Part shown: piece by piece, positions 13,491 through 46,100 of the stretch | Layout: every line of letters begins with the position of its first letter | Numbering within the stretch: position 1 is the stretch's first letter | Assembly: GCA_949317995.1 (NCBI GenBank) | Contig: OX439044.1 | Span: 12,433,141 to 12,497,140 of the forward strand | Length of the DNA: 64,000 nt | Origin: Acholoe squamosa | Lineage: Eukaryota > Annelida > Polychaeta > Phyllodocida > Polynoidae | Direction of reading: 5' to 3' | Notes under the pieces: generated by a model | What the model was told of the DNA's origin: nothing | Databases searched by the model: none | Seen by the model: the letters and a program-made list of their open reading frames with translations, nothing else | Position numbers and translations under genes: made by a program

Positions 13491-13813
13491 ATCTTTGAGA
13501 CAAGTGGACACAGGAAAAGGCAGCAAATGTACCAAATCAATTGTCATCTTGTTTTCTGATTTGCCAAATGAGTCCACTTTGAGAAGATCCTAAATCTTAC
13601 TACTGCAGGTTTCATAAGTGTTTGCATAAAAATGAATAGTCTTATATCTCCTGTGAAGAAAAAAATATCAGAGACCCGATGGAAACCTTATGCTTATGCT
13701 TGAAAATCATGGTTACAATCAACTAGATTTGTGGTGTAAATGTATAGGCTATCCCCATAAGGCCTAATACAAATAAGTTCCTCTGTAACATTTTTTTAAT
13801 CTAGATACAGCCA
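13491..13813. other. Upstream region of the opsin, possible 5' UTR acceptor
   Basis: Unique AT-rich sequence before the first recognised opsin ATG. A pyrimidine-rich tract ending in TCTAG (13799-13804) or ATACAG (13805-13810) could be a splice acceptor, so an upstream non-coding exon may exist. No TATA box could be assigned. Confidence 0.35.
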
Positions 13814-16900: not shown

Positions 16901-19900
16901 CCATCTCGATTCTACCACTTATATCAAAACTCTGTGAAAAAATCATACACACTCAATTAATGGAATATTTATCCAGAGAAAATATTTTGAACAGCAAACA
17001 ACATGGTTTTAGACCAAATCATTCTACTTTAACAGGTTTACAATACCTAATGGACCACATATATCATGGTCTTGAAAATAGGTCTACTACTCTCATAACC
17101 TACTTGGATTTCGCCAAAGCTTTCAATACAATAAACCATAGTATTCTGTGTAAAAAACTGCAGAAGATAGGACTTGATGAAGCCTCTGTTCTGTGGTTTG
17201 AGTCATATTTGACTGATAGATACCAAACAACTAGGGTAAATGGGTAAACCTCTAATGAGCTCATTATTATATGTGGGGTTCCACAAGGTTCAATACTAGG
17301 TCCGTTACTATTTTTGATTTATATAAATGACCTCCAACATTCACTCAAATATATGGATTGTCAGTTATATGCTGATGATACCGCTCTATTCTGTACCTAT
17401 AGTGAACCCACCATGGAAATTGTTACACACATTAACCAAGATCTTGCCAATGTTGCAAACTGGTGTAAAAAGAACAAACTGTCTCTAAATATAGGCAAGG
17501 CTAAGTACGCAGTCTATGGTACAAAGCAGAAAATTAAAAGACATCGACCTATATCTCTCTATATTGGTACACAAAAACTATTGCAAACACAATGCTACAG
17601 ATACCTTGGCATAGAATTAGATGTCAATCTATATTTTAAGAACCATTGTAATATTGTATACAATAATATGTCCTATAGAACTTATCTGCTGACAAAAATT
17701 AGAAAAAAACTCATGTGGGACTCTATGAAGCACATTATATTAAGCATGGTCCTACCCGCCTTTGAATATGCCAATCAAATCTATGGCTGTACAAATAAGA
17801 CAGGACTTGATAAGATTGATTATACATTATTAAGATTGCTAAAGATATGCTATCCCCAATTTAGATACAGAAATGTAGAATTTATCAGAGAATTTAGTGG
17901 CATACAAACCATATCAAAAAGGCATCATATTGTTGCATGTTGCGATGCCTATAAGTATGCACAAGATGATACACATCTGGATACCAGGGACATCCATACT
18001 CGACGACAAGATGCTAAATTAGTCAAGCTATACTGGCCTAAGCTAACTAAGGCCAAACAAAGTTACACCCATAAAATAACCCATCTATGGAATAACTTCC
18101 CTGTACTTCTGCGATCTGCTGGTTCCCTATTGGTGTTCAAAAAACGATTACGTGACTACTTATAATTGTGTAATGCTCAGTCCTCTTTGTTTGGTTCCTT
18201 CCCTCCTCCCCATATATCTTTCCCCTGGTTCCTCCCTCTGTGGATCTTCCCTGGCATAACTAAACTATATTATTAACCATGTAGTTATTATTATTCTTAC
18301 TTATAAATCATATTTTTATTAACAAAAGCAGTGAATTAATTTATTTGCTGTTTATATAGTTTATTATAGCATTGTTCATATTATATTAATGTACATGTCA
18401 CACTGTAACAGGACAACTCGGACCAGTACGCGTCCCCCTGTTGCAGTATAAATAAACAATTTTGAATTGAATTGTCATCTTGTGATATTGCATGATTCTA
18501 CATTGTCAATAAAATTTTAACCCACACATGTTTTATTCCATGTAATGTTCTCAAAATAGGTCCAGGTCTCAGCGTGAGTGAATTGCGAGCTAATTAGAAA
18601 TTGGCATTAATTCACTCTGGAGACCTTTACCTACATACCTTACCTCTCAAAAGCGGCCCCTACTGCCGCCCTCACTCATCTGAAGCAATGGACTGTTGCA
18701 GATATATCTGAGTGAGTTCCATAGATATATACACATTGTATACCCACCCACCCACACCTATATTATATGGAAAAGGTGAACTAGTAACTCGGCATCCCAT
18801 ACAGACATGATAGACAATATACAATGCTTATCAGGGTGGTACGGTAGTAATGATAGTATTATGGTATAATCATCCAATCGTCTCCTACGTCATCTTGTGA
18901 TATTGCATGATTCTAACATTTTAACCATGTTTTATTCATTGTCAATAAATGTTCTCCAAATAGATCCAGGTCTCAGTGTGAGTGAATCAGCTGTGTGTAA
19001 GCTTACATTGTCGATTAGTGATTTCTGCACTCATACCTAGCACCATATTATGGCATGACTAGCCACCAGAATGACCCTAAACTTGTCACTCCTCAAGCAT
19101 ATGTTTCAAACTAGAAAAATGTAACCTATGCTTGAAGAGTGAGTAGTATTTCCGATTCCTGCCTACATAAAAGTAAGTCATGGGAGTTAAATATAGTGTA
19201 CTCCCACTATGCTCTGCTGCTTCCTGTAAGGTGGTACGCAGGGCACCAGAGTAAGTAATTTGGAACAAACGGTGAAACCAGAATGAGCCGGCAGGCCCGA
19301 GTGCTGTCCCCTGTGTTTCAATAGAGGCACCAATCCTTTCATTCTGGACCTATCGGTATGTTCGACCCCTGGCCAAACTGACTTGTGTTAGTTACTTGAG
19401 TAACCTGCTGGGTTATCGGATTGGCTACCAGTCTGTGACATCATAAATGGGTCAGGGCAGGTTGTTGTATAAGATACAGAGCCTCAGACCTCCTCTGTTT
19501 GTATCCCACAGTGCCCCATTCCAATGCTACAAACAGATGTCACATGACTTCCTGTGTTACATGTGTCCGGGTCTGGCCTTACTCAAGTAAACCCAGTTGG
19601 CAATTGGAGCAAAACTCCGTAAGTTACAAAGCCAGGGGTCGAACGTACCATATATTTGGTGTAAAACTAATGCCATGACTTACATCCCAAGATCTAAATC
19701 GACTCAAATGTAAACCAAATTATGTATGCCATTGGATTTGTATTTGAAGGAAGACTGCACAAATTGGCCCTGTCTTGCTAGGTTACATGGATATTGACAC
19801 TCAAATCTCCTCTTTGAGTGAAATTGAATCTTTCTTTTTTTCTTTCAAAAATATAGGTCGCGCAAGCTGCGTACACCTAGTAACACATTGGTGTTAAACT

Positions 19901-20116: not shown

Positions 20117-22476
20117 TCTCTCACTCTCTCTCTCTATTCTATTCTTGAGTAGGCACCAATATGGCATTTAGTTTATTAAGAAGAACAGAGTGGTCTATGG
20201 TGTTGAATGCCTTCCTCGGGTCAATAAAAGCCGCCACAGTAGAATTCCCAATGTTAAGGTCTCTTTTGATGTCATCTGTAAATTTAGCTATTAAAATATG
20301 TATCCCCTGTGCTAACTAGATCTGAAACCCCCTTGGTGAGGCGTGAGTACATTTTGGAATGTGGAAAGCTGGGTAGGGTCGGCATGATGCATGAATGCAG
20401 CTCCAGTGAGGTTCATCCTGACCAACATTCATTCATACATCATTCTGACTAATAGACATGATCTTAGTAGCAAATACTGGCTTCTTAAAGAAAACCCCTA
20501 CCCTCTTTTCATGATAGCTTATTTTGATGGTTTTCATGTCAAATAAAAGGATTCTACCATGGTTTTTGAATTAGGTGTCAATATAGAGGAGACAGCCAGC
20601 ATCATCTGATGCATCTGATGAAGTCATGGTTGCCAAATTGCATCAGTTTTGTTTATATTTGGTGGGCATTGCAAGACGTTTACAATAATGAAAGGTGCAG
20701 GGTTAGGATACGGTATACTCACAGGTACCTTCTGTTGATATGCAATCATGGAAATAGGGTAGGGGGTTTCTTTAAAGATCAGCCAGCATTTTCTCTTAGT
20801 AACCTTTAGGATTGTTAGATTGATGCTTATTGTATTAGTAATTACAGGGGTCTCACTGCAATCACATTCACCAGGGATGGTATGTATAGGGTGAATAGGC
20901 TATGTCTCACACAGTTCTGTGCATTAGAAGACTCAACTTCTTTTTACATGCCTTTCCCACAGAATTGAAGTAGGTTAAGGTACTATATATAATTATACAT
21001 GATTTTGCAAACATTTGATTGCATTTTCAGCGTGTGATTTCTATGGCACGGTCGTTACAGCATTTGGCCTGATGTCCATCAACACGCTAGTCTTCATTTC
21101 GTTGGATCGTTACATTGTCATCGTTGGTCTTCAGCACATCCCAAGTGTGACGAGTAAAAATGTGTGGTACTGCATCCTCGTTATCTGGGTATATAGTTTT
21201 GTGTGGGGCATCTTACCTTTACTTGGCTGGAACAGGTGAGTTGAACAGGCCTGGAAACTGCTGGCAATAAATTAATTGAAAATAAATTGAAAATAAGACA
21301 GCACAGACCGGTGGCATTTGATAAGCTGGTGATTGCCTGGGATGATCAGCCTGTACTGAGGAATAGCCTGGTGTTATCACAACAGTAATGCTTTGTTATT
21401 TGTGCACTGATGTAAATTTGTGCACATTACCACTATTCAAACTTTCAAGATCATTGTCTCATCTAGGTTTCAGCGATGTATCAAACAGTTTTATGTTTCT
21501 CAGCCCACACTGGCTAGTTTCCTATGGCAGGCTGATTCAGTAGTGCAAGCTGATCACCTCAGGCAACCACTAGCTTAAATGCCAGTGGTTGCATCCTCAC
21601 CCCTGCTGTCTTATTGCCAGCATTTTCCGAGCCTTTTGAAGTATATAGACAAAGTTGCATGTCTTAAGGGATAATTTTTCGGGAGTTATGATCAATTCTT
21701 GAGTACCTCTATACTCATTAAACAAATTGTTTGATTCTCTGCTGAATTATTTTGATATGCTTTCTTTTTTGGTTTACTTCAGGTATGTCGTTGTTGGTTA
21801 CGGCACATCATGTTCCATTGACTACTTCACTCGTCACGAGCCGCATAATTATTTCTTACTATCTATGATGATTTTTGCCTTTATTATTCCCTGCTGCATC
21901 ATTATGACACTCTATGTCCTAATATTCCGCAAAATTAAAAAGCACGGTAACAGGTTCACCATAATGTCATCAAACAAAGAATGCCTGAAACATGGCTCAC
22001 GAAAGCGGAGCTCGGTTCTGATATATGCATCATCATTAGATCAGCAGATGAGAGACAAACCAAGATTGAAATGGACCCAGAGGGAGTGTAAGATCGCTCG
22101 GACTATGCTCATAGTGGTACTTCTGTTCATCATGGCTTGGACCCCATATGCTGTTGTTACTATAATCGGGCAGTATGGGGATGTAACATTGGTAACTCCT
22201 ACTATTTCTATGTTATCAGGAGTTTTTGCAAAGGGCTCCACCATTTACAATCCATTTATTTATGCCCTCATCCATCATCGCTTCAAGCGTCAACTACGCA
22301 CGATTTTAGAAAAGATCTTCCCAAAATGTTTTCAATCAAAGAGAAAGAGCTGTCACTTCTCACAGTTGAATAGTCTAAAATTACGAACTAGATCCCTCTC
22401 AGGGTCATCCACTACCAATAGCAGGACACCAGAAGCCATAGGGACAGAAATCAGTAACAACAGAAGACATAGCTGA
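13814..22476 (+). CDS. Rhabdomeric-type (melanopsin-like) opsin, four coding exons
   Basis: Four exons (13814-13977, 19857-19990, 21031-21235, 21783-22476) join in phase to 399 codons, including the stop. The product is a seven-helix GPCR that should bind retinal. Visible landmarks are an N-terminal 'NWT' glycosylation sequon, 'NLAVADLLM' in TM2, the disulfide pair Cys101/Cys178, DRY at 125-127, 'TSCSIDY' in loop 2, 'WTPY' at 287-290, the Schiff-base Lys318 in 'FAKGSTIYNPFIY', and NPFIY at 324-328. Loop 2, 'SRKLRTPSN' and the TM6-TM7 region look like Gq/melanopsin opsins. The bovine-113 position is Tyr104, as in r-opsins. The bovine-181 position is Val, not Glu, which is unusual. The first ATG follows a possible splice acceptor, so a 5' non-coding exon is likely. 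The subtype within r-opsins is uncertain. Confidence 0.9.
13978..14344. other. Opsin intron 1, first segment
   Basis: Intronic sequence with no element that I can name before the MITE pair begins. Confidence 0.4.
14345..14679 (+). mobile_element. MITE, family CAGGAG(G/C)GTGTTGCTCC, copy 1
   Basis: Begins CAGGAGCGTGTTGCTCCTAT and ends ATAGGAGCAACACCCTCCTG, a terminal inverted repeat of about 20 bp that is itself partly palindromic (GGAGNNNNNNNGCTCC). The interior 'GGTACCTAGTTGGGAG' recurs in the copies at 14893, 38748 and 60945. It is non-coding. It lies in opsin intron 1 as half of an inverted pair. Confidence 0.8.
14893..15257 (-). mobile_element. MITE, family CAGGAG(G/C)GTGTTGCTCC, copy 2 (inverted)
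   Basis: The same element as 14345-14679 in opposite orientation, 213 bp away. It runs from 'GAAGGGTGTTGCTCC' to 'GGAGCAACACCCTCCTG'. It contains a 'GACTTTTCAGACTAA'-complement segment absent from copy 1, so the copies came from separate insertions or have diverged by indels. Transcripts of the opsin intron could fold into a long hairpin here. Confidence 0.8.
15258..16529. other. Opsin intron 1, middle segment
   Basis: No coding exon recognised. Two open frames at 15399-15974 have no motif and no codon bias that I can defend. The motif 'TTTGAATAAGTGCTGTTTTCGAATAAG' (two related halves around 15475-15500) looks like part of a transposon end. Confidence 0.35.
16530..16850. repeat. Minisatellite of about 75-90 bp units
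   Basis: About four units each hold a 'CTCCAGGGGTG(A/G)GT' or 'CTCCTGGGTCACTC' box, 'CACCTTCCCC' and 'TCTTCTGCCACTCATACT'. The units directly precede the truncated LINE and create a spurious N-terminal extension of its reading frame. Confidence 0.65.
16845..18165 (+). pseudogene. Reverse transcriptase of the truncated LINE, one in-frame stop
   Basis: The frame encodes RT fingers and palm: 'NNYRPISILPLISKLCEK', 'QHGFRPNHST', motif A 'YLDFAKAFNTINH', then 'GVPQGSILGPLLFLIYIND' and the catalytic box 'YADDTALF' at about 17370-17390. The C-terminal part ends 'KKRLRDYL' at 18165. A TAA at 17245-17247 lies between motifs A and B, and the frame is otherwise open on both sides. The endonuclease domain is missing through 5' truncation. 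It cannot produce a full protein. Confidence 0.85.
16845..18475 (+). mobile_element. 5'-truncated Jockey/CR1-group non-LTR retrotransposon
   Basis: The element keeps the reverse transcriptase and downstream part, then a 3' UTR ending 'AATAAACAATTTTGAATTG' with a short terminal ATTG-type repeat rather than poly(A), typical of several Jockey/CR1-group LINEs. It is inserted in opsin intron 1, in the same sense. A segment just downstream ('CTTGTGATATTGCATGATTC' at 18479) recurs at 18893, so the target lay in a local duplication. Confidence 0.75.
18476..19354. other. Opsin intron 1, direct-repeat segment
   Basis: A block of about 105 bp at 18475-18580 ('CTTGTGATATTGCATGATTC', 'TGTTTTATTC', 'CCAGGTCTCAG(C/T)GTGAGTGAA') recurs with indels at 18888-18995. 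The rest has no recognisable content. Confidence 0.5.
19355..19649. mobile_element. MITE with GGTA(T/C)GTTCGACCCCTGGC ends
   Basis: The left end GGTATGTTCGACCCCTGGCC and the right end GCCAGGGGTCGAACGTACC form an imperfect inverted repeat of about 19 bp around 295 bp of non-coding DNA in opsin intron 1. No coding frame inside. The target duplication is not clear. Confidence 0.65.
19857..19990 (+). CDS. Opsin exon 2 (loop 1 and TM2)
   Basis: The acceptor is 'AAAATATAG' at 19848-19856 and the donor GTAAGT at 19991. It encodes 'SRKLRTPSNTLVLNLAVADL' and TM2, and ends in 'HWVHEKW'. It enters in phase 2 and leaves in phase 1, which matches exons 1 and 3. The Asp of 'AVADLLM' is the conserved TM2 aspartate. 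Confidence 0.9.
20056..20134. repeat. (TC)n-rich microsatellite
   Basis: A run of TCTC with TCTG variants in opsin intron 2, which generates meaningless Ser-Leu frames. Confidence 0.9.
20155..20282 (-). pseudogene. Short reverse transcriptase fragment of another LINE
   Basis: On the minus strand, a frame of about 42 codons reads 'TDDIKRDLNIGNSTVAAFID' followed by 'PRKAFNTIDHSVLLNKL'. This is RT motif A with the preceding helix of a Jockey/CR1-group LINE. It is distinct from the copy in intron 1 and truncated on both sides. It lies in opsin intron 2. Confidence 0.7.
20283..21030. other. Opsin intron 2, remaining part
   Basis: Non-coding. An imperfect hairpin motif occurs at 20383-20455 ('GCATGATGCATGAATGCAG' facing 'CATTCATACATCATTC'), of a type also seen near 35710-35775, 40177-40240 and 60736-60775. 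Nothing else recognised. Confidence 0.4.
21031..21235 (+). CDS. Opsin exon 3 (TM3 and TM4)
   Basis: The acceptor is 'TTGCATTTTCAG' and the donor GTGAGT at 21236. It starts with the conserved Cys101, carries 'ISLDRYIVIV' (DRY 125-127) and TM4, and ends 'LPLLGWN'. Incoming phase 1 and outgoing phase 2 match its neighbours. Confidence 0.92.
21236..21782. other. Opsin intron 3
   Basis: 547 bp, GT-AG, with no recognisable element. An inverted pair ('GGCTGATTCAGTAGTGCAAG' region near 21530 against 'GATCAGCCTGTACTGAGG' near 21345) suggests an old short inverted-repeat element. Confidence 0.4.
21783..22476 (+). CDS. Opsin exon 4 (loop 2 to C-terminus)
   Basis: The acceptor is 'GGTTTACTTCAG' at 21771-21782 and the stop TGA at 22474-22476. 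It encodes loop 2 'YVVVGYGTSCSIDYF', TM5, a long basic third loop, TM6 with 'WTPY', TM7 with Lys318 (AAG at 22231-22233) and NPFIY, and a Ser/Thr-rich tail with many candidate phosphorylation sites. After NPFIY comes 'ALIHHRFKR', where many Gq opsins have HPK(Y/F)R. Confidence 0.93.
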
Positions 22477-25737: not shown

Positions 25738-25753
25738 CATAACCCAGCAAATT
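25738..25753. repeat. LINE target-site duplication, left copy
   Basis: CATAACCCAGCAAATT, identical to 32978-32993. It is followed by the T-run that is the LINE poly(A) tail on the minus strand. Confidence 0.9.
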
Positions 25754-26057
25754 TTTTTTTTTTTTTTTTTATAGAGCAGTGCTCATTTTTTATTTAAAAA
25801 TAAAATAATGTCTATAGCTATACAGGTCTTCGCTACATTTTTTGATATTTTGTTATATAAACACCACAGGACACCACAGGACAATACATAGCGCATTATT
25901 ATAGTGAGTATGACAATAGATGTGTTCTATATGACTAGTGATAGAGACTAGATACTGATATACCTCTACATCGATACAGTTTTCGCAGCTCCGTTCCCCT
26001 ATCTAGGAAGTATGCTATGAGTGAGATACTAGGGTTCTTTCAGTGTATGCATAGCGG

Positions 26058-27437
26058 TTACATTGAGTTCAAAATAGCCTCCCATTTCCTAAACCTCTTT
26101 TGCTTGTTTTCTAGACTGCATATAAATTTTTCTGAGAGAAGAGAGTGTTTAAACTCTCCTATCCATTGCAATAGATCAAGATGGCACTTGTGATACAAAC
26201 GCTGCCTATAAATGTAAAACCTGGTTCTAAGCATTACATTATTGATGATATCACCATTTGGAATTTTTCTACATAATCCAAGTATCAATTCATGCTCATC
26301 TAAATTCCCTGTATCAATCTTAGCAACAGTGTTTATCCATCGTACGACTGACTTCCAGAAGTAGGTTACTGGGGGGCATTTCACAAGGAAGTGATCAAGA
26401 GTGTCAGTCTTACCATCACAATATATACATTCTGGGCTTTCCCTTGCACGTATATCAAACAGGTATTTGTTACAAGCTAGTATTTTATGGAGTACCTTAT
26501 ATTGAAATGATTGTAACTTTGTTTCCCTACTCACTTGGTATGGACACATATATATGTCATACCATGGAACCTTTGTAAATTGGACCTCAGGAAAGACTTT
26601 TGCCCATTTCATTTCATTCCTTGGCATTTGTTGTGAGTGACGGTATAGAACAATCCAATACAATTCCTTGCTTGATGTTGAAAAGAGATTAACTACATCT
26701 GGGTTATTATCAATGACCCAGATACAGTCATTTGGCCTTTGAATTTCGTCACTGGATATGCTAGCTCTCCAGCTACCTGGTATACTTTGTCGGATTTGTA
26801 GAGCCTGAAGAAAGTTACACTGAACACCATACCTTTGAGAAATTTGAGTGTCTGACATAAAACTTCCATTATCCAGTAAATCTTCAACCCTGACAATACC
26901 AGCCTCCCTCCAAGACTTCCAAAATATTGGTGTATTATTGATAGTGATAAACTTATTCTTCCACAATACTTCATTACGGACCTCCGTTTCTCTTACTAGT
27001 GAGACATTTTGGAATTCATGCCAGTCCTTGAGAACCTGATAATAGAATGGGCTTGCTTCTCGTGGTATGTTAATATCTGATTTTGTATGAATGAACAGTT
27101 TCAAGTCAGACACTTCATGGAGAAATAACTTAATAAAATCACATGGAACCATGGTGGTATCCCAATAGAACCTTTTGATCCAGTTTATGTTAGATACAAT
27201 GATTTTCGTTTTAAAGTTGCCTACTGCAAGTCCACCATGCTTAGTCTGTGCCTGAACACGTGCCCTGGCCACCTTGTTCCTGTTGGAGCCCCATAGGAAT
27301 CTGTCAACAACTCTATTGACTTCATCTATTGCTCTAGATGGTGTAGTGGTGACTGAGGCCGGGAACATCACACATGGTAGCATTAGGCTGTTTATGATGA
27401 TAGTTTTACCTTTGAGTGAGGTGTCTCCAATCCTCAC
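26058..27437 (-). pseudogene. LINE ORF2, C-terminal part (after a frameshift)
   Basis: This frame of about 459 codons continues ORF2 after a one-base shift in the overlap 27406-27437. It begins with the thumb-region pattern 'SLKGKTIIINSLMLPCVMF', common to L1/Tx1 ORF2 proteins. Near its C-terminal third it carries a zinc-finger-like 'CIYCDGKTDTLDHFLVKCP' (C-x2-C-x7-H-x4-C), as in the zf-RVT region. It has no ATG of its own (the frame opens at a GTG) and would not be made separately unless the ribosome shifts frame. Confidence 0.85.
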
Positions 27438-29826
27438 TTATGCTGGTGATTTTTTGTATCTGGGGTTCAAAGTTCCACGAGTAATTTTGGGCTTCTGTCC
27501 TATTTGGTGCTACAGAGATGCCCAGGACAATCAATCTTTCGCTCCATGCAAGACCCTCCAATTCGGTCTGACTAGTGTCAATACCACCGAGTGCAAGATA
27601 TTGTGTCTTATATCTATTCACCTTCAGACCAGAGTACCTCCTAAACCTTCTCAAACAGTCCAGCAGATGATGTAGAGCTGCTGCTGACTCGATAAAACAA
27701 GTGGTATCATCAGCATATTGACATATCTTTACTTCTCTAGTACCAAGTCTTATACCTTTAATATCTACATTCATGCGTACATTATGAGCTAACAGTTCTA
27801 CAGCAATAACAAACAAAAAAGGCGATAGACAGCATCCCTGTCTGGTTCCGCATGCAAGTTCAAACCAGTCACTTGTGTACCCATTATTTATGACACAGGC
27901 AACAATGTCTTTATATAATATCCTGACCCATGAGATGTATTTTTCCCCAAATCCAAACCTTTCAAGTGCCTTAAAGATAAACTCCCACCTTATCTTATCA
28001 AATGCTTTTTCAAAATCAACCGCCATCAGAATACCAGGGCGACCTATCTTTGTGGTGTATGCTAATATATCTTCAACTGTGCGAATACTTGTTCCTATAT
28101 ACCTTGACCTAACAAATCCAGATTGATCTGAGCTTATAATACTAGGGAGGTGGGGTTTTATCCTTTCTGCCAGGGCCTTGGTGTAGATCTTATAGTCTGT
28201 ATTCAACAGGCTGATCGGCCTCCAGTTTCCTAGCTGGAGTCTATCTTTTTCCTTTTTAGGGATAAGGGTTATAATGCCACGTTTCTGTTCTTGGCTCAAG
28301 CTGCCCGTTTCCGTGGCATAGAGTAGACTTTGACTAACATCATCCCCAATATCAGTCCAGAAGAACTTATAAAACTCTGCACTTAGCCCATCAGTGCCTG
28401 GGCACTTCCCATTCTTTAAGGATTTAAGACTGTTGAGAAAATCTGACTTTGATAAGGGTCTCTCTATCATCTCTCTCTGGTTGTCAGACAAGACAGCTAA
28501 GTTGTTTGTATCTATGAAGGGACAACTGTCATCAATATCATCTAACTCTCTATAGCTATCTGAGTACAGATTTCTGTAGAATTGCTTCTGTACGCTAAGG
28601 ATATCTTTGCATTCAGTGACTATATGCCCATTTTGATCTTTCAGTTGAGTAATAAGTTTGTCCATAAAATTCTTCTTTTCTAAATTCAAAAAGTATTTGG
28701 TTGGTCGTTCACCCACCTGGGACCAATTCGCTTTTGACCTAAACATGATGGCTCTGGCTGTCTTTAATTCAATATCTTTCAGGTCTCTCTTAACACTTTC
28801 CATTTCATCAATTACATCATGGCCCTCATCAAAGGCTGCAGTCAATTTGCCCAGACTGTTTGCTAACTCCCTCTCCACCTTTTTAGACTCTGCCTTCTTC
28901 TTTTTGCTGTAATTAATTGAAAATTTCCTTATCTCATACTTCAGAATCTCCCACTTCGCATTGGGTGCCAGATCCTGGTATTCTATCTTACATTTTCCAA
29001 GCATAGTCTTAAGTTGATTCACATAGTCTTTATCTGAGAGAAGGGTATTATTAAACTTCCACACATTTGGGCCTCTGTCCTGGTCAGCACTGGAGATTCC
29101 CAGTGTTACCTTACTGTGGTCAGACAGCGTTCCAGGACGGATATCTGTTTTATGAACAAAGCCTGTCAAATGCTCAGACACTAGCCAGAAATCTATCCTG
29201 GATGCTTGCTCCTGCCTATGAAAAGAATATCTACGTAAATTAGGGTGTCTAACTCTCCATATATCTACTAAGCTGAGAGTATCTTGTAGACTGTATATTT
29301 GCTTCCTATACTGCTTATTAGCTGCCCTTATACTATTAGTTGCCCTTCTGTCTATATATGGGTCCGGGGTTTCATTAAAGTCACCTCCAAGGAGAAAGTT
29401 TTCGACTTCATAGCCTTTTAATCTATCTGATATTTCATCTAATACAGCCATCTGGTCTGCTTCATAGTTTTGTGTTGGAGCATAAATATTGCATAAGACA
29501 TACTCCGCTCCCTGAACCTCGATGTGCAATATAATATACCTCCCATTGGCATCCAGTGTCTTTTCTAGGCACTTGTAAGGGTAATTTCTATTGAAGAGTA
29601 TGGCTACACCTTTGGATGATGAGCTGCCATTTGCACATACCATATCACCACCCCACTCAGCCTTCCAAATCTTTTCCACTTCTGCTGTGCAGTGGGTTTC
29701 CTGAAGGAAGACAATATTATAACTTTCATCCTTTAGCTTCTTGAAAATAGCTCTTCGCTTATCTCTCACCCTTATGCCATTAACATTAAAGGAGCATAGG
29801 TTAATCACTCTTGTGTTATTGGTCAT
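27406..29826 (-). CDS. LINE ORF2: APE endonuclease and reverse transcriptase
   Basis: The 806-codon frame starts at ATG 29826. Residues about 8-240 form an APE-type endonuclease: 'SFNVNGIR', 'FLQETHC', 'GGDFNETPD' and 'SDHSKVTLGI'. This domain nicks target DNA. Residues about 450-760 form the reverse transcriptase: 'NWRPISLLNTDYKI', motif A 'AVDFEKAFDKIRW', 'GTRQGCCLSPFLF' and the catalytic 'YADD' at about 704-707. A frameshift near 27437 cuts off the last third of the normal product, which is still readable in the next frame. The ORF otherwise lacks stops, so the copy is young. Confidence 0.9.
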   Translation of the reverse strand: MTNNTRVINLCSFNVNGIRVRDKRRAIFKKLKDESYNIVFLQETHCTAEVEKIWKAEWGGDMVCANGSSSSKGVAILFNRNYPYKCLEKTLDANGRYIILHIEVQGAEYVLCNIYAPTQNYEADQMAVLDEISDRLKGYEVENFLLGGDFNETPDPYIDRRATNSIRAANKQYRKQIYSLQDTLSLVDIWRVRHPNLRRYSFHRQEQASRIDFWLVSEHLTGFVHKTDIRPGTLSDHSKVTLGISSADQDRGPNVWKFNNTLLSDKDYVNQLKTMLGKCKIEYQDLAPNAKWEILKYEIRKFSINYSKKKKAESKKVERELANSLGKLTAAFDEGHDVIDEMESVKRDLKDIELKTARAIMFRSKANWSQVGERPTKYFLNLEKKNFMDKLITQLKDQNGHIVTECKDILSVQKQFYRNLYSDSYRELDDIDDSCPFIDTNNLAVLSDNQREMIERPLSKSDFLNSLKSLKNGKCPGTDGLSAEFYKFFWTDIGDDVSQSLLYATETGSLSQEQKRGIITLIPKKEKDRLQLGNWRPISLLNTDYKIYTKALAERIKPHLPSIISSDQSGFVRSRYIGTSIRTVEDILAYTTKIGRPGILMAVDFEKAFDKIRWEFIFKALERFGFGEKYISWVRILYKDIVACVINNGYTSDWFELACGTRQGCCLSPFLFVIAVELLAHNVRMNVDIKGIRLGTREVKICQYADDTTCFIESAAALHHLLDCLRRFRRYSGLKVNRYKTQYLALGGIDTSQTELEGLAWSERLIVLGISVAPNRTEAQNYSWNFEPQIQKITSISEDWRHLTQR

Positions 29827-30322
29827 AACATTTTGGATTCAGAATAAGGGTCATATTATATTTGGTTTTACACAGAATTTGTGGGGTACCAATAACTCTA
29901 CTTTTTAGGTTCAGTTGTCTTACAATCATCCACAGCCACGCTGTGAGGGTACAATACACATATATCATCATGTAAGCCTTGCTAACATTCTGTTGGCACC
30001 TCATAGAGGCAAAATACAATAACACAACTACCAAAATGATGTACATAATCTTGCGCACACAAATAACAGATAAACATAAACACACAAGAAGAGAAAAGTA
30101 GAGCATTCACATTTAGTTGCTCCATATACCATGCGTCTCATGCACCTGAGAGAGCTGTTTGATTATATGTTCATTTTTGTTGGGTATTTTAATTAAGACT
30201 ATTGCGATCCATCCCTAAGTTGAATGAATCTTGAGCACCACATGATTATACCCAGCTGTTGCAGTCATTACCATCAACACACACACATACATATACATGT
30301 ACACATTTTGGGGCGGAGTAAG
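29827..30322. other. LINE spacer between ORF1 and ORF2
   Basis: About 500 bp between the two ORFs on the minus strand, unusually long for an L1-like element. A 96-codon frame at 29816-30106 reads as strongly hydrophobic but has no start context or motif and is not claimed as a gene. Confidence 0.4.
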
Positions 30323-31912
30323 TTAAGCAGTATCCTCAAATTCCTGGCGCACTTCTTGGAGAATTTTACCAAGCAGGTTTTTTCCAGACCATAGCTCCTG
30401 GTTTAAGGCGTTCTTATCAGTCAGTCTCATCCCTATGCCCCATACAGCATCTTTTGAGGCTTCACCAATAACCTTATTTCCTGTGCTAAGGAGACGCTGG
30501 CGAATGAGTGGATTTTGTTGGACCTTAGCCCTAATCCCTTCCATTGCGATGGACTTGGATTTAGCGATCCATTCGTCCTTGTGCTCTTCCCTGCACTTGT
30601 GTAGTATGCCCTTTAGCTTGGCAGGCACGTCCAGCCGCCATGCCTGTCTCTCTAAGTCTTCACGCCTTGCGATAATGCACCTTTGTATGGCGAGGTATTT
30701 CTCCATCGATGTGTAGGTCTTGTCTCCAATCTTAAATGTAGCAGGGTAGTGGTTGCTAAAAGGGGAGGCCTTGGTGAAGAAAACTACAGTGTTCTCATTC
30801 TCTAGTGTAGCCAGAGCCTCTGGTCCCAAATATTCAGGAAGAGTGTCCCAGTTTTCTTTGTTGTAGAGCTTGCCATCGAGGTACAGGGATGTGCCCGACA
30901 TTCTCACCTCTCTGTAAGTGCCATGGTTCTTGGCCACCCAATACGTCTTTTTAACTTTAGCTAGTTCCCCTTTCAGTTTGGTGGGGATATCCTCACTGAG
31001 CCAGAGTTGGGCACCGTTTACTTTGTAGTCCCTAAACTGTGCTCTTCGCCCCCACAATTTATTTCTTGCATCCAGGAATTTCAGCCTTATTAGTACAGGC
31101 CTTGTAGCTTGTCCAGGGTTCCTCGTAATGCGGTGAGCCACGTCAATGCAGCTACTCTCCATTTTTGCATGGCGCCAAAAGATTCTTCCCAACTCTACCC
31201 TCAAACTTTCAGATGTTTCGTTTTCACCCTCTGGGAGGCCATCCAGCAGTAAGTTCAATTTTCTTGAGTACGCTTCCTGTTTGATGGTGTTGTCCTCATT
31301 TCTCTCGAGGTGAGCCTTATTTTCTTTAACCTGTATCTCAGTTTCCTCCAGCTTGGTTTTCGTCTCTGATAGTTGGTTCTTTGTTTCCGTTAGATCCGTC
31401 TGGAGCTTAGCGACTTGCTCCTTCAGGACCTGGATGTCGCCTTTGTTGATTTCTACATCCTCCGCCACACTTGAAAGGTTATCGTTGAATTCCTTGATGT
31501 CGCTTGCAGTAGTTTGACCAGTGTTGTCGACTCTGATAAGCCGTTCCTCGATCCTGGCTAAAGTTCTAGCTAGCGTGAGTAAACTCAGCTCCTCAGGGTT
31601 GATGTTCTGGGTTAGTGTAGGTTTGCTAGCAGTACCAGCTACCCCGCTGTTAGACTGGTGTTGGTGGGCTTCTTCGGTGACCCTCAGTTTTCTATCAGTA
31701 TCGTCATCAGACAGTCCTGCTTCTTCAGGCATTCTTTTTTTCGCTGCTTTGTCAGTGTTTTTACAGTCCATAGGGGCCTCCCCTTCCCCAGATGAGTTGC
31801 TCTCCATTGTGACCAGAGGTGCACCGGTTGGAATAGATACAGCACCCCCACATTGATCACTGACACTTGATGTTGACATATTAAAACCTGGGCGAAGTCT
31901 AAAGATGCACAA
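30323..31912 (-). CDS. LINE ORF1 protein fused to a C-terminal NADAR domain
   Basis: 529 codons. If an inner Met (residue 12, 'MSTSSVSDQ') is the start, 518. Residues about 1-100 are acidic and disordered. About 105-225 is a heptad-rich coiled coil ('EDVEINKGDIQVLKEQVAKL' and on). About 215-345 resembles the L1 ORF1p RNA-binding part ('RKLNLLLDGLPEGENE'). About 376-525 reads as a NADAR (YbiA/DUF1768) domain: 'SPFSNHYP', 'YTSMEKYLAIQ' (Glu404), 'DEWIAKSKSIAMEGI', 'VIGEASKDAVWGIG' (Glu484, WGIG 491-494) and 'GKNLLGKILQEVR'. NADAR enzymes hydrolyse ADP-ribose-type N-glycosidic bonds, including from nucleic-acid guanine. The coiled coil and RNA-binding part would package LINE RNA. A role for NADAR in the element is inference. 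Confidence 0.88.
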   Translation of the reverse strand: MCIFRLRPGFNMSTSSVSDQCGGAVSIPTGAPLVTMESNSSGEGEAPMDCKNTDKAAKKRMPEEAGLSDDDTDRKLRVTEEAHQHQSNSGVAGTASKPTLTQNINPEELSLLTLARTLARIEERLIRVDNTGQTTASDIKEFNDNLSSVAEDVEINKGDIQVLKEQVAKLQTDLTETKNQLSETKTKLEETEIQVKENKAHLERNEDNTIKQEAYSRKLNLLLDGLPEGENETSESLRVELGRIFWRHAKMESSCIDVAHRITRNPGQATRPVLIRLKFLDARNKLWGRRAQFRDYKVNGAQLWLSEDIPTKLKGELAKVKKTYWVAKNHGTYREVRMSGTSLYLDGKLYNKENWDTLPEYLGPEALATLENENTVVFFTKASPFSNHYPATFKIGDKTYTSMEKYLAIQRCIIARREDLERQAWRLDVPAKLKGILHKCREEHKDEWIAKSKSIAMEGIRAKVQQNPLIRQRLLSTGNKVIGEASKDAVWGIGMRLTDKNALNQELWSGKNLLGKILQEVRQEFEDTA

Positions 31913-32977
31913 GGTCTAACCCCTACCAGCTGACAAAACCTTGACCAGTGTTGGGTATTTAGTCACAATAGGGCTGGGGAGGGACAGCTAATAGGAAATC
32001 GACCTGTGCAGTGGTTCACTGGGTTATATACTCATATTTCACATGTGGTTAAGTTGATGATACAGCACCGACAACTGAGAACACATGGACATGGAGCTAT
32101 GTATGGCTACTACATGTTACATAGAGCCTGCCTCCATACCTTTGGGTGCATTCAGTTAGACATTCAATATGGACCGGTTAGAACCATCCAATTTGAAAAA
32201 TTCTTTTGGATCTAGAATCCTTGGAGCGTCTACTTTCTGGCAAACTTTGAATCGTCACGATCCGACTGTCTGCCTGACAGTTTTGTTGCCGAGCACGTAG
32301 AGCGGTTCCAATCCCTGTGCGTCAGACCCACTAATTATCAAGTGCATTGAATCAGGCTTGATCTCACGATTCTAACAATATATAGTTTATGGGGGTTTCT
32401 CACAGTGTAGTTGCTTAAAGAATAGTTGTTTACTTTAAAGTTGTAGAGTTACTGTCACTAACTGTAGTAGTAGTGTCTCGAACACACCCAGCACACTCAA
32501 GTCAGATACCACAGCAAGGCTCTATGATATCTCAACTACCAACTGCCTGTTTAGCAGCATTTATATCTGCCTAGGTATGTCACTCCTTAAATATATTGTA
32601 CAGCTTAAAATTGTCATAGAGAGGCCCAACAAACGCCAAAATGATCATGAAAGTCTACCGAGTGAGGCTACGCTTATGCCGTGTTGTTATTGTTTATATG
32701 GGCCGAACGGGAGTACGGTTTTCGTCATGCACTTCCTGTTGCTACTTGCTTCAATTATCGCTCAGTTCTGTCCATGTGCGACCTAAATGTGGTTTGCTTC
32801 TGTGTAATTTACTGACGAATTTGAGAGGGACTTCACATATACAGGTTCCTTGGTACTTGTTTGTTTGTTCAGCGAAGTTTGTGCTCCCTAATAGGGCTAT
32901 AGAATGCCAAAAAAACAGTTGTCTGCTGGGAGTGATATTGCTGGGCACTTCTCTGGCTGGGTGCGTTCGACCCTCCC
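31913..32977 (-). promoter_or_regulatory. LINE 5' UTR, expected internal promoter
   Basis: About 1.07 kb from the 5' end of the element (32977) to ORF1. A full-length 5' end followed by the target duplication implies that this region contains the internal promoter that L1-type elements need. I see no TATA box or tandem monomers that would mark it precisely. Confidence 0.45.
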
Positions 32978-32993
32978 CATAACCCAGCAAATT
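32978..32993. repeat. LINE target-site duplication, right copy
   Basis: CATAACCCAGCAAATT. The last 11 bases are the terminal repeat of the DNA transposon that begins at 32983. Confidence 0.9.
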
Positions 32994-34787
32994 GTTGTTA
33001 TCTGTCGCCATGATTGGTCATCAATGGTGACTCCTCTTTGAGTGATAACTCACTGCGTCATCTTTCGCCACTGTGTGTTAGTCCCACATGGCATGGCGAT
33101 TTATCACAACAGTCACCAACATGATCTCACTCACTGCGTGAGTATGTGCCACTGCCTGTCAACTCTCACTCAGAATGGCGGCTTATCACAAGCATCGCCA
33201 ACATGGATCTGACTCACTGTGTGATTATGTACCACTCCCGGTCAACTCTCACTCAGAATGGCAGCTTATCACCACCATCGCCAACATGGATCTCACTCAC
33301 TCCGTCAATATGTGCCACTGTCTGTCAACTTTCACTCAGAATGGCGACTTTTCACCTGCATTGCCACATGGCTCTCACTCACTGCATGAGTTTGTGTCAC
33401 TCCTAGTTAATCTTCTCACAAAATGGTGACTTATCACCACCGTCACTGACATAGGTGTCACTCCCTGTGTGAGTGTGTACCACTGTCATCAACTCTCACA
33501 CAAAATGGCAACTTATCACCACCATTGCCAGCATTGGTCTCACTCAATGCGTGAATTTGTGTCACTCCAAGTCAATGCTCTCTGAGGATTGCATCATCTG
33601 TCACTCACTCTCACTCAGAATGGCAACTTATCACCACCATTGCCAAAGTTGTTGAGACAGCACCACTGTTCAACATGTAGCCAATCTAGGAAGTGTGGGC
33701 ATGAAGTATAAGTCCCATACATATCAAATGTGCTTTGTTTCACAGTGATTTCCATGTAATACTTCAGAGTTGAATCAAACAAGATCATATAGAGAAAATA
33801 TCAATTGAATTTAGATAGAGGTATCTCTAAAATGAAAGCAACTATCCATAAACACCTTTTCTCTGGTTACAGGAAAAATACATAGGGAAATAACTACATG
33901 AACACCTTGTGTGTGGTTAGAGGGAAGATACATATGGCAATACCTTCTCCGGCAAAACATACATTGATCTGGCAGATGTGAGGCTGCATGATTACAAATG
34001 TCGATGATCATGAGCTTTTCATCTAACAAGATGAGTGATCACCAGCATCGCCATCACTGGTGAGTCTGAGTGATCACCACTCTCGCCATCCCTGGTGAAC
34101 CTGCGCTATGACGTGGTGCACATTTCATCTAGCGAGGTGAGTGATCAACCATCTTGCCATCCCTGGTGAGTGTGAGTCATCACTATCCTCGCCAACCGTG
34201 GTGAACGTGCGCTATGGCATGGTGTGCGTTTCATCTAGCGAGGTGAGTGATCACTTGTGTCGCCATCCCTGGTGAGTGTGGGTGATCAAGATCCTCACCA
34301 TCTGTGGTGAACCTGTGCTATCACGAGGTACGCATTTCATCTAGCGAGGTGAGTGATCACCTGAGTGACCATCCCCCGTGAGTGTGAGTGATCACGATCC
34401 TTGCCATCCGTGGTGAACGTGCATTATGACATGGTGTGCATCTCATCTAGTGAAGTGAGTGATCACTCATGTCGCCATCCCTGGTGAGGATGAGTGATCA
34501 CTCATGTCGCCATCCCTGGTGAGGATGAGTGATCACGATCCTCGCTATCCCTGGTGAACATGCACTATGACGAGGTGCGTGTTTCATCTAGCGAGGTGAG
34601 TGATCACCTGCGTCGCCATCCCTGGTGAGTCTGAGTGATCACGATCCTCGCCATCTGAGGTGAGGCCATATGATCACCACCATTGCTATTCCTGGTGATC
34701 TTGTGCTATAGCGACGTCGTGTTCCATCTAGCGACATGTGTGAGCCACTTCACACAGGTTGACGAAGAATCATGACAATTTGCTGGG
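32983..34787 (+). mobile_element. Non-autonomous DNA transposon, CCCAGCAAATTGT ends (copy E2)
   Basis: It starts CCCAGCAAATTGTTG and ends GACAATTTGCTGGG. AA lies outside both ends once the LINE is removed (possible 2 bp target duplication). Left third: units with 'CTCACTCAGAATGGC' and 'TTATCACCACCATCGCCAAC'. Right half: units with 'CGCCATCCCTGGTGAG', 'GAGTGATCAC' and 'TTCATCTAGCGAGGTGAG'. A unique core at 33650-34030 matches 12480-12870 inverted, almost without change. No transposase. The repeat arrays on both sides of a unique core are shared by copy E1, so they belong to the element. Confidence 0.82.
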
Positions 34788-36447: not shown

Positions 36448-37447
36448 CAAAACGATGAGGCAAAACTCATCACTACTGATTAGTTTTTGATAAGTTCCCA
36501 TTTTCAGTGTGACCTCTCTCAGCTTTGTTGCAGTTTACACAAGCAGCTGATAATGTGTTGTAAATATTGGGTAAAGTTGCGTTGAGTGACTATGTACATT
36601 GTAATTTTCTGCAATAAAGATTTTGTACCCCCAAAAATAATATGTACAACAAAACACAAAAATACGATGAACATTCTTATATCAGAATTCAACAGAAAAT
36701 AACCTTTAGACAAGACACTATTTTGACATTCATTTAAAGTAAACTCTTTCTAATGTAAAGAGCTTTTAAAGTTTGATGGGGAGAGTACATGCAAACAATT
36801 GAGTACCAATGAATCAGTTGTGAATGGTTTATTGTGTTTAACAGGTAGAGCCACCATTGCCAGCATTGGTCTCACTCAATGCGTGAATTTGTGTCACTCC
36901 AAGTCAATGCTCTCTGAGGATTGCATCATCTGTCACTCACTCTCACTCAGAATGGCAACTTATCACCACCATTGCCAAAGTTGTTGAGACAGCACCACTG
37001 TTCAACATGTAGCCAATCTAGGAAGTGTGGGCATGAAGTATAAGTATAAACGATGAGGCAAAACTCATCACTACTGATTAGTTTTTGATAAGTTCCCATT
37101 TTCAGTGTGACCTCTCTCAGCTTTGTTGCAGTTTACACAAGCAGCTGATAATGTGTTGTAAATATTGGGTAAAGTTGCGTTGAGTGACTATGTACATTGT
37201 AATTTTCTGCAATAAAGATTTTGTACCCCCAAAAATAATATGTACAACAAAACACAAAAATACGATGAACATTCTTATATCAGAATTCAACAGAAAATAA
37301 CCTTTAGACAAGACACTATTTTGACATTCATTTAAAGTAAACTCTTTCTAATGTAAAGAGCTTTTAAAGTTTGATGGGGAGAGTACATGCAAACAATTGA
37401 GTACCAATGAATCAGTTGTGAATGGTTTATTGTGTTTAACAGGTAGA
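36448..37447. repeat. Direct duplication of about 400 bp enclosing a transposon fragment
   Basis: 36450-36848 ('AACGATGAGGCAAAACTC' to 'TTTAACAGGTAGAG') recurs, as far as I can read without a difference, at 37048-37446, an offset of 598 bp. Between the copies, 36849-37043 matches the core of transposon E2 (33515-33706) including the words 'ATTGCCAGCATTGGTCTCAC'. It is either a recent duplication, with the E2 fragment at the junction, or a misassembly. Confidence 0.8.
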
Positions 37448-43179: not shown

Positions 43180-46100
43180 TTTTCCCTCCCTTTCTCATCT
43201 GGGAACCAGGAACTGGACTTGTCTTTATTCTCGAGTATAAGATATTCTAGCGGGTCCAAATTTGTGGAGATAATCACGTTCTCTTGCCCAAGTTGTGAAC
43301 GTTCCAAATTTGAGTCCTGTTCAGTAGGATATATTATCACAGTGCAGAATAGGGCAAAATGGAGATGGGGAAATGTTCGTGTATGTTGTTCTAAACTTGG
43401 GATGATGAATGATATGCTGAAGTTGTTATCAAGGAAATGCATTGAGGACATAGAAAATGCCCCCCCCCCTTGTGATTCCAAGTGAATGGCTATGATTTTA
43501 ACAGTGAAATTGCACTTTTGCAAATGGTTGTATTATCGTAAATTATGGTGCTGATTCCTGTTCATGCTCTAATACATGTAGCAAGTCCTAGAAGGCATTT
43601 CTCATCGTGTTATGTGTGGACATAGTCACTATGATTTGGAATCCACAAAGTTCAAGTGGGTGATCGCGTGTGATGCACTTTGACTGTTTTGTACTATCAA
43701 TACTTAAAGTTGGCATATCCGCTAAAAAGACAGATTTGAAAATTTGTGGAAACACATCTAAATAGTTTGTAAATGATCATCTCTTTTGCTATGTATATAT
43801 TGTTCCAAATACGTTCCAAAGTGTCTAATCACAATACAAAACACTCACTGGATGGTCCTTGACATTCCTGCTCAGCAGAGTGCCACCTGTTGGCTAGTCT
43901 GACAGGCTTTGTGTAGTGTTTAGTACACCTTGAGGATTAGGACTGGCTATTCATCCACAGCACATAGGCTCCCTCTATAGGAAATTACCCACACCTGATT
44001 TATTACTAGGATAGGAATAAATACAGGACATAGGTTTTCTTTGTTTTGGAGCAGAAATATTTTACATAATCATTAGTTATTTTAACACATTGTTTAGAAT
44101 GCTGTGTAGATGGTAATGGATGAGAAACCCCAAATTTTATAGTGTGATAGCGGACATGCCCACTTTGATGCAGCAGTAATTACATAGGGTTTGGTAGGGC
44201 AGTTGTACCTGTGCAATTATTAGTCACCAGTAGATGGAGGGCTATAATGACATTAGACTCCGATCCTACTACGATTTGAAGGGGTCTAGTGATACCATCT
44301 TGAGAAATGCCTTCCAGGGGTGCACATCTTTATAGTTTATGGACTGAGAACCTAGACCCTACTGACTGTCTTGATGGGGGAACACTTGACACTATTACTG
44401 TATACTAACTGCATGTTGACCCTACTGACTGTCTTGGTGGGGCAATACTCGACCCTATTACTGTATACTAACTGCATGTTGAACCTACTGACTGTCTTGG
44501 TGGGGCAATACTCGACCCTATTACTGTATACTAACTGCATGTTGAACCTACTGACTGTCTTGGTGGGGCAATACTCGACCCTATTACTGTATACTCACTG
44601 CATGTTAACCCTACTGACTGTCTTGGTGGGGCAATACTCGACCCTATTACTGTATACTCACTGCATGTTAACCCTACTGACTGTCTTGGTGGGGCAATAC
44701 TCGACCCTATTACTGTATCCTAACTGCATGTTGAACCTACTGACTGTCTTGGTGGGGCAATACTCGACCCTATTACTGTATACTCACTGCATGTTAACCC
44801 TACTGACTGTCTTGGTGGGGCAATACTCGACCCTATTACTGTATACTAACTGCATATTAACCCTACTGACTGTCTTGGTGGGGCAATACTCGACCCTATT
44901 ACTGTATACTCACTGCATGTTAACCCTACTGGCTGTCTAGATGGGGCAATACTTGACACTATTTCTGTATACTCACTGCATGTTAACCCTACTGGCTGTC
45001 TAGATGGGGCAATACTTGGCACTATTTCTGTATACTCACTGCATGTTAACCCTACTGGCTGTCTTGGTGGGGCAACACTCGACCCTATTACTGTATACTC
45101 ACTGCATGTTAACCCTACTGACTGTCTTGGTGGGGCAATACTCGACCCTATTACTGTATACTCACTACATATTGACCCTACTGGCTGTCTTACTGTCTAA
45201 AGACACTATCAATCTATACTCAATGCATGTTGACCCTACTGGCTGTCTTACTGTCTAAAGACACTATCAATCTATACTCACTACATATTGACCCTACTGG
45301 CTGTCTAACTGTCTAAAGACACGATCGATCTATACTCACTGCATGTTGACCCTACTGACTGTCTAACTGTCTAAAGACACTATTACTCTATACTCACGGC
45401 ATGTTGATCCTACTGGCTGTCTTACTGTCTAAAGACACTATCAATTTATACTCACTGCATGTTAACCCTACTGGCTATCTTACTGTCTAAAGACACTATT
45501 ACTCTATACTCACTGCATGTTGATCCTACTGGCTATCTTACTGTCTAAAGACACTATTACTCTATACTCACTGCATGTTGATCCTACTGGCTATCTTACT
45601 GTTTAAAGACACGATCGATCTATACTCACTGCATATTGACCCTACTGGCTATCTTACTGTCTAAAGACACTATTACTCTATACTCACTGCATGTTAACCC
45701 TACTGGCTATCTTACTGTCTAAAGACACTATTACTCTATACATACTGCATGTTGATCCTACTGGCTGTCTTACTGTCTAAAGACACGATCGATCTATACT
45801 CACTGCATGTTGACCCTACTGGCTGTCCTAATGGGGGGACACTTGACACCCTTCCTGTGTACTCACTACATGTTGACCCTACTGACTGTCTTAAGCCACG
45901 GCCACTCTAACCCTTTTTGAGCAGACTCAATCAGACCCGACCAGATAAGACCAGAACAGACACAACAGTCTTAAAGAGTTTGGCATGCAGAACTCTAAAG
46001 ACTAGTGAGATTTATTTTGACCCGACTGTCTTCTCTGGTCTTCCAAAAACAACCTATTGTGACCGGGGCTTTACTGTCTAAAGACACTCTTACTCTATAC

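Follow-up and report, generated by a model that had tools for sequence, protein, structure and literature searches.

Why would a long interspersed nuclear element (LINE) carry a NADAR domain at the end of its RNA-binding protein? The question is raised by a 64-kb stretch of the genome of the polynoid annelid Acholoe squamosa (contig OX439044.1, positions 12,433,141 to 12,497,140; hereafter the window), in which the open reading frame (ORF) at 30323-31912 encodes the ORF1 protein (ORF1p) of such an element. An earlier note, which was made from the nucleotide sequence, had described this frame as a LINE ORF1 comprising a coiled coil, an L1-type RNA-binding region and a C-terminal NADAR domain. 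Pfam searches and the predicted structure bear out this description, and the ORF1-NADAR fusion is real, being neither a chance match nor an artefact. The explanation that accounts best for the observations as a whole is that the ORF1-borne NADAR domain would strip ADP-ribose from guanines of the element's nucleic acid or of the target DNA, a tentative reading to which we assign a probability of about 0.42.

The NADAR domain of the ORF1 protein

The frame is located on the minus strand, and the plus-strand reading of the same stretch is full of stops. It encodes 529 residues from a TTG codon at 31912, the stop-to-stop frame starting at 31915, and 518 residues from the first methionine (residue 12, 31879). 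From this likely start, ORF1 is a single open frame (30323-31879, minus strand). In the predicted structure, one long helix forms the coiled coil (residues 109-216; 31265-31588), which is followed by an L1-type RNA recognition motif (RRM; residues 217-308; 30989-31264), an L1-type C-terminal domain (CTD; residues 309-365; 30818-30988) and the NADAR domain (residues 374-527; 30332-30793), all encoded on the minus strand. The coiled coil, the single RRM and the CTD are those of a Type II ORF1 protein.

The profile search that the earlier note had proposed gave matches above the cut-offs of both models. The Pfam NADAR family PF08719 matches ORF1 with an E-value of 9.2e-27 and 94.7 bits (curated cut-off 35.1), and the match spans profile positions 9-162 of 163 and ORF1 residues 381-525, which were numbered 380-524 in the Pfam query because the latter began one codon later. 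The NCBIfam model TIGR02464 scores 101.7 bits (cut-off 73.7). The other Pfam matches on ORF1 are to coiled-coil families and stay below their cut-offs. Moreover, the predicted structure of the domain agrees with the NADAR (YbiA) fold. The four motifs quoted in the earlier note are all present in the quoted order, and the key Glu and Trp positions are indeed kept as E404, W448, E484 and W491.

The element and its insertion

ORF1 is part of a full-length non-long-terminal-repeat (non-LTR) retrotransposon of 7224 bp (25754-32977, minus strand), which is read right to left and flanked on both sides by an exact 16-bp duplication. The target-site duplication at the 3' side of the element (CATAACCCAGCAAATT, 25738-25753) is identical to the 16-mer at its 5' side (32978-32993), and a poly(A) tail (25754-25770, minus strand), visible as 17 T on the plus strand, adjoins the former copy. 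From 5' to 3', the element consists of about 1.1 kb, ORF1, about 0.5 kb, ORF2 in two pieces and about 0.3 kb. The first piece of ORF2 (27406-29826, minus strand) encodes an APE-type endonuclease and a reverse transcriptase (RT) with a YADD motif (Pfam Exo_endo_phos, E 3.2e-15; RVT_1, E 3e-41). The second piece (26058-27437, minus strand) encodes a zinc-binding RT-associated region (Pfam zf-RVT, E 2.4e-5), which with 25.3 bits lies slightly below the curated cut-off of 27.5. With an APE-like endonuclease and an RT in ORF2, a target-site duplication and a poly(A) tail, the element has the features of an APE-type non-LTR retrotransposon. The comparison of ORF2 with L1 and R2 proteins covered PDB entries, among which the first piece matches human L1 ORF2p (8sxt) end to end (E 1.6e-96, residues 1-803), whereas the matches to R2 proteins are far weaker (3.2e-18 at best). 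Judged from these sequence comparisons, the element is an L1/Tx1-group LINE whose ORF2 resembles L1-type ORF2p most among the entries compared, and its ORF1p is a Type II RNA-binding protein to which a NADAR domain has been added C-terminally.

A single frameshift near 27406-27437 separates the two pieces of ORF2, and this copy is therefore probably not autonomous any more. The exactness of the duplication suggests that the insertion is fairly recent. A second copy of the element was not found by blastn within the window.

The element directly abuts the end of the right copy of a 1.8-kb repeat (32983-34780, plus strand), and it was therefore inserted later than this repeat. The other copy is inverted (13490-11759, minus strand); the two are 88% identical over 1.8 kb, contain internal minisatellite arrays and share CCCAGCAAATTGT at their ends. 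It was considered whether the 16-bp duplication is in part the terminus of the adjoining repeat, since the related copy at 13490-11759 likewise terminates in CCCAGCAAATT. The duplication was kept as such because the preceding CATAA matches at 25738 and 32978 but not at 13495 (AAGAT) or 11755 (TACAT), and because the poly(A) tail comes directly after it.

Relatives, conservation and origin of the domain

A search with the whole ORF1 uncovered at least five related proteins, all with a NADAR domain and with identities from 50% down to 24%. A profile search added the shorter relative P0007, and the use of the NADAR part by itself as the query gave 56 proteins, including P0008 and P0039, both of which start in ORF1-like sequence ahead of the NADAR domain. 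Because these relatives were found with a NADAR-containing query among the matches listed, the presence of the domain in every one of them need not hold for all related LINEs. Five other full-length ORF1s have the same layout as the window copy. The short proteins P0007, P0008 and P0039 are probably pieces of ORF1, as suggested by the sequence that precedes the NADAR domain, and this assignment is weakest for P0008 and P0039.

Among the six full-length ORF1s, the mean pairwise identity is highest in the NADAR domain (33.1%), followed by the RRM (25.6%), the CTD (25.4%), the coiled coil (18.4%) and the N-terminus (15.7%). Between the window ORF1 and its nearest relative P0002, it amounts to 61% in the NADAR domain, 60% in the CTD, 46% in the RRM and 41% in the coiled coil. 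The fact that conservation within ORF1 peaks in the NADAR domain points, indirectly, to selection on it. These figures also bear on the idea that the fusion is accidental, either because a NADAR gene came to lie beside a LINE or because the domain is a decayed passenger without a role. The frameshift in ORF2 of this copy would be in line with decay, but the domain is encoded in one unbroken frame within an element bounded by the duplication, the layout recurs in the other full-length ORF1s and no other part of ORF1 is better conserved. An accident of this kind is thus very improbable, and a join of the LINE with a neighbouring gene was rejected because there is one frame inside the duplication and the relatives share the layout.

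A tree was calculated from 101 of 119 NADAR rows, in which several LINE rows are long-branched, the bootstrap has not settled and the only named eukaryotic host NADAR is that of Phytophthora nicotianae (PDB 8bau). Six of the nine LINE rows form one group (100/95), which stands beside mostly bacterial-type stand-alone NADARs (91/91), while P0005 with P0006 and P0039 fall outside this group. A single clade of LINE NADARs is not rejected (AU p 0.273), and the domain may have been gained by LINEs once, twice or three times, all of which are compatible with the tree. For the ORF1-like proteins P0039 and P0005/P0006, which lie off the main LINE clade, separate gains are possible. When P0003 and the window ORF1 were each used as a single-protein query against viral contigs, no LINE copies were found, and in an alignment search of viral contigs none of the 31 loci examined (of 39) had ORF1-like sequence ahead of the NADAR domain.

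Conserved glutamates and an altered ligand clamp

The pocket was assigned by alignment to 8bau, of which the residues touching ADP-ribose are listed in PMC11543638 (here and below, papers are cited for individual passages of their text). The numbering of the 8bau chain agrees with that paper at 12 of 12 checked positions after allowing for two extra leading residues. The active-site glutamate E43 corresponds to E404 (30701-30703), K50 to R411 (30680-30682), the pair G78-R79 to L437-H438 (30599-30604) and E125, the glutamate of the YbiA subfamily, to E484 (30461-30463), with all codons on the minus strand. Further equivalents are K434 (K75), W448 (W89), S452 (R93), D488 (D130) and W491 (W133). 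The spacing between K434 and W448 is 14, the same as that between K75 and W89, and the assignment of G78 and R79 in the window copy is therefore independent of any gap. The window copy departs from usual NADARs by an Arg in place of Lys (R411), by Leu-His in place of the Gly-Arg that contacts adenine and pyrophosphate (L437-H438) and by a Ser in place of Arg or Lys (S452), three deviations that the earlier note had overlooked.

Nine LINE NADARs, six from full-length ORF1s and three from pieces, were compared with 110 others (29 from phages, 26 from genomes of bacteria and archaea, 53 stand-alone proteins that are unnamed or bacterial and two from the PDB), and gaps were left uncounted. The acidic pair is kept throughout the LINE NADARs: E43 is Glu in 9/9 (others 93/93), and E125, which as a Glu rather than Asp or His in the last strand marks the YbiA subfamily, is Glu in 9/9 (others 104/110). 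Conservation is similarly high for K75 (Lys in 9/9; others 98/102), D130 (Asp in 8/9; others 110/110) and W133 (Trp in 7/9; others 109/110). In contrast, K50 is Lys in only three of the nine LINE NADARs (Arg in four, Gln in two) but in all 100 others, G78 is Gly in two of nine versus 99/102, R79 is Arg in one of nine versus 95/102 and position 93 is Arg or Lys in three of nine versus 87/104. For the six full-length ORF1s alone, the counts are 1/6 (K50), 1/6 (G78) and 0/6 (R79). The rows of this comparison are not independent, although Fisher tests treat them as such; after clustering at 60% identity to 48, the 110 other rows retain K50 in 45/45, G78 in 43/46 and R79 in 40/46. The stand-alone set was partly picked by similarity to the window NADAR, which if anything masks the pocket difference. 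The pair G78-R79 is a common feature of NADARs, by which the family is not defined in the literature considered here. The E43 and K50 positions are largely conserved across the superfamily (PMC11543638), and in the window copy the former is kept as E404 and the latter is an Arg. As far as aligned residues can tell, the catalytic acids are thus fixed in LINE NADARs and the clamp for adenine and pyrophosphate is loosened. The clamp change is shared by the two LINE groups in the tree and may therefore have arisen repeatedly or, provided that the LINEs form a single clade, on one occasion.

The replacement of the ligand-holding residues K50, G78 and R79 would also fit a catalytically weak or inactive domain that keeps its fold for a structural or targeting function in the ribonucleoprotein (RNP), where it would bind RNA ends, nucleotides or a protein of the host. 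Indeed, NADARs serve RNP proteins, as the nematode trans-splicing factor SNA-3 has three of them, one without the key residues (PMC9303266). However, a pure binder would not need both glutamates, which are kept in all nine LINE NADARs despite identities down to the twenties, and mutation of key residues in NADAR2 or NADAR3 of SNA-3 impaired its function, although the authors consider that folding may have been affected (PMC9303266). Thus, we regard such a binding role as unlikely. Under the preferred reading, that of a base-directed hydrolase, the grip of the pocket could relax because the RRM and the CTD hold the substrate. It is conceivable, albeit doubtful, that LINE NADARs make up a class of their own, in which the glutamate pair is fixed and the K50/G78/R79 clamp has been dismantled since modified nucleic acid is offered to the pocket by the RNA-binding part of ORF1p. 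In that case, LINEs would bring along their own repair enzyme against ADP-ribosylation of bases, and it would follow that this modification acts against retrotransposons in invertebrates.

A putative role in the removal of ADP-ribose from guanine

We know of no general role for animal NADAR enzymes. The NADARs tested in published work hydrolyse guanine-ADP-ribose in DNA (PMC11543638, PMC11125620) and were alone among the hydrolase families tested in hydrolysing it in RNA (PMC11833690). The latter study also revealed that the E. coli C7 NADAR outperformed YbiA and the T4 NADAR on RNA, perhaps through nucleic-acid binding. Moreover, guanine-N2 ADP-ribosylation of DNA has been found in six edible clams (PMC11209040). 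The role proposed here builds on these activities, on the guanine-N2 mark in clams and on the fact that the published LINE-NADAR fusion comes from an oyster. A reversal of nucleic-acid ADP-ribosylation, which the earlier note had suggested as a putative role of the ORF1 NADAR, would fit the published biochemistry on guanine (PMC11543638, PMC11833690).

According to this proposal, multimers of ORF1p would coat the element RNA and thereby place numerous NADAR domains on it. The pair of E404 and E484 would hydrolyse the N-glycosidic bond between ADP-ribose and guanine bases of the element RNA, of the first-strand cDNA or of the target DNA at the insertion site, which would be held nearby by ORF1p. 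As a result, guanine-ADP-ribosylating enzymes of the host or of the environment could not halt reverse transcription or insertion.

Several points weigh against this proposal. The activity, the substrate and the host modification are predictions, and most LINE copies have other residues at the positions by which 8bau holds adenine and pyrophosphate. The other pocket positions are not free of exceptions either, with Tyr for W133 in P0006 and P0007 and Asn for D130 in P0002. Furthermore, the K95R exchange at the K50 position of the E. coli C7 NADAR left hydrolysis in vitro intact but abolished the rescue of cells (PMC11543638), and the window copy has the same change to Arg. Finally, the erasure of the clam CARP-1 mark by NADARs is an assumption of the authors (PMC11543638).

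It has also to be considered that the domain acts on small molecules such as soluble ADP-ribose derivatives, NAD-type RNA caps or intermediates of the riboflavin pathway, and thereby dampens a host signal that is based on nucleotides or preserves a metabolite. All eight LINE NADARs scanned exceed the NCBIfam cut-off of TIGR02464, which is named riboflavin biosynthesis intermediates N-glycosidase, and the altered clamp is compatible with a changed substrate. However, TIGR02464 also covers NADARs active on guanine-ADP-ribose and does not discriminate substrates. For viruses, soluble ADP-ribose derivatives have been argued to be preferred by phage NADARs and macromolecular ADP-ribosylation to be the target of RNA-virus NADARs (PMC9503650). 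As a domain fused to a multimerising RNA-binding protein would be expected to find its substrate on the nucleic acid of the element or close to it, a small-molecule substrate does not seem likely to us.

A further proposal has been printed for the NADARs of oyster LINEs and brown-algal Gypsy elements, namely that they help to process the element's own RNA in transposition (PMC12477816). This idea follows an analogy with RNA viruses drawn by the Ectocarpus authors and would imply no tie to host defence. The passages of PMC12477816 name no RNA-processing reaction by NADAR, and NADARs showed no activity on RNA that was ADP-ribosylated at phosphate ends (PMC11833690). Such a function therefore appears improbable, and the removal of ADP-ribose from guanines is retained as the preferred reading.

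Other features of the window

A second retroelement (50853-54714, plus strand) contains a gag-like ORF with Cys/His motifs, an RT with YLDD, an RNase H-like part and a tyrosine recombinase (Phage_integrase, E 1.3e-13), and a short repeat is present downstream at 54914-54969 and 55422-55477, about 500 bp apart. Presumably, it is of the DIRS/Ngaro type. A broken RT in two frames (16534-18165, plus strand; RVT_1, 1.8e-16 and 4.4e-6) shares 29% identity over 193 residues with the LINE ORF2. A segment of 195 bp (36851-37045) is exactly identical to 33519-33713 in the right copy of the 1.8-kb repeat, which is due to a very recent duplication or to an assembly effect. Moreover, the window contains a partial rhodopsin-type G protein-coupled receptor (21727-22476, plus strand; 7tm_1, E 4.7e-19), by which an animal host is suggested, and a long tandem array with units of about 58-63 bp (44356-46673).

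Comparison with known systems

The fusion itself is not a first. NADAR-like domains have been reported in ORF1 of several Tx1 LINEs of Crassostrea gigas from Repbase, with the processing of RNA intermediates as the suggested role (PMC12477816, 2025). Like the window element, these are L1/Tx1-group LINEs with a YbiA-family NADAR in ORF1, a likeness that rests on their description in one passage of a paper on brown algae, which is given without an analysis of layout, conservation or pocket. Among the open-licence papers listed by the literature searches, a LINE-NADAR fusion was not found elsewhere than in this paper. What is new here are the ORF1 conservation figures and the altered pocket, which are not met in the passages of PMC12477816. 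In the same paper, one Gypsy lineage of Ectocarpus is described whose Pol carries an N-terminal NADAR domain. These elements are likewise retrotransposons with a NADAR domain, but they are of the LTR type, carry the domain in another protein and position, and their NADARs, according to the paper, are closest to those of bacteria.

Among RNA viruses, NADARs occur in nidoviruses, hepe-like viruses and picornaviruses of annelids and bivalves (PMC9503650), that is, in invertebrate RNA-based replicators with the domain inside a larger protein. By description, they resemble the window ORF1 in this respect and differ from it in that they sit in polyproteins; the passages of PMC9503650 on viral NAD/ADP-ribose systems do not mention retrotransposons. 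The window copy differs from the P. nicotianae NADAR (8bau) and E. coli YbiA (2b3w) by R, L, H and S at the positions of K50, G78, R79 and R93 and by its fusion to ORF1p. Human LINE-1 ORF1p, which is also of Type II, shares the order of coiled coil, RRM and CTD but stops after the CTD, whereas the window ORF1p continues into the NADAR domain. A LINE that keeps a NADAR domain in the long term and ties it to its RNA-binding protein would suggest that nucleic-acid ADP-ribosylation is a problem with which retrotransposons have to deal, and the window ORF1p is a compact protein on which this link can be tested.

A further parallel is provided by the Type IV ORF1 proteins of CR1/L2 elements with an SGNH esterase, which represent another case of a LINE ORF1 with an acquired hydrolase and a conserved active site (PMC3905857, PMC4120745). 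The esterase differs in fold, chemistry and LINE clades, and the respective ORF1 proteins are without structural RNA-binding domains (PMC3905857). Thus, NADAR joins the esterase as a hydrolase recruited by a LINE ORF1, and the difference at K50, G78 and R79 can be tested at the bench.
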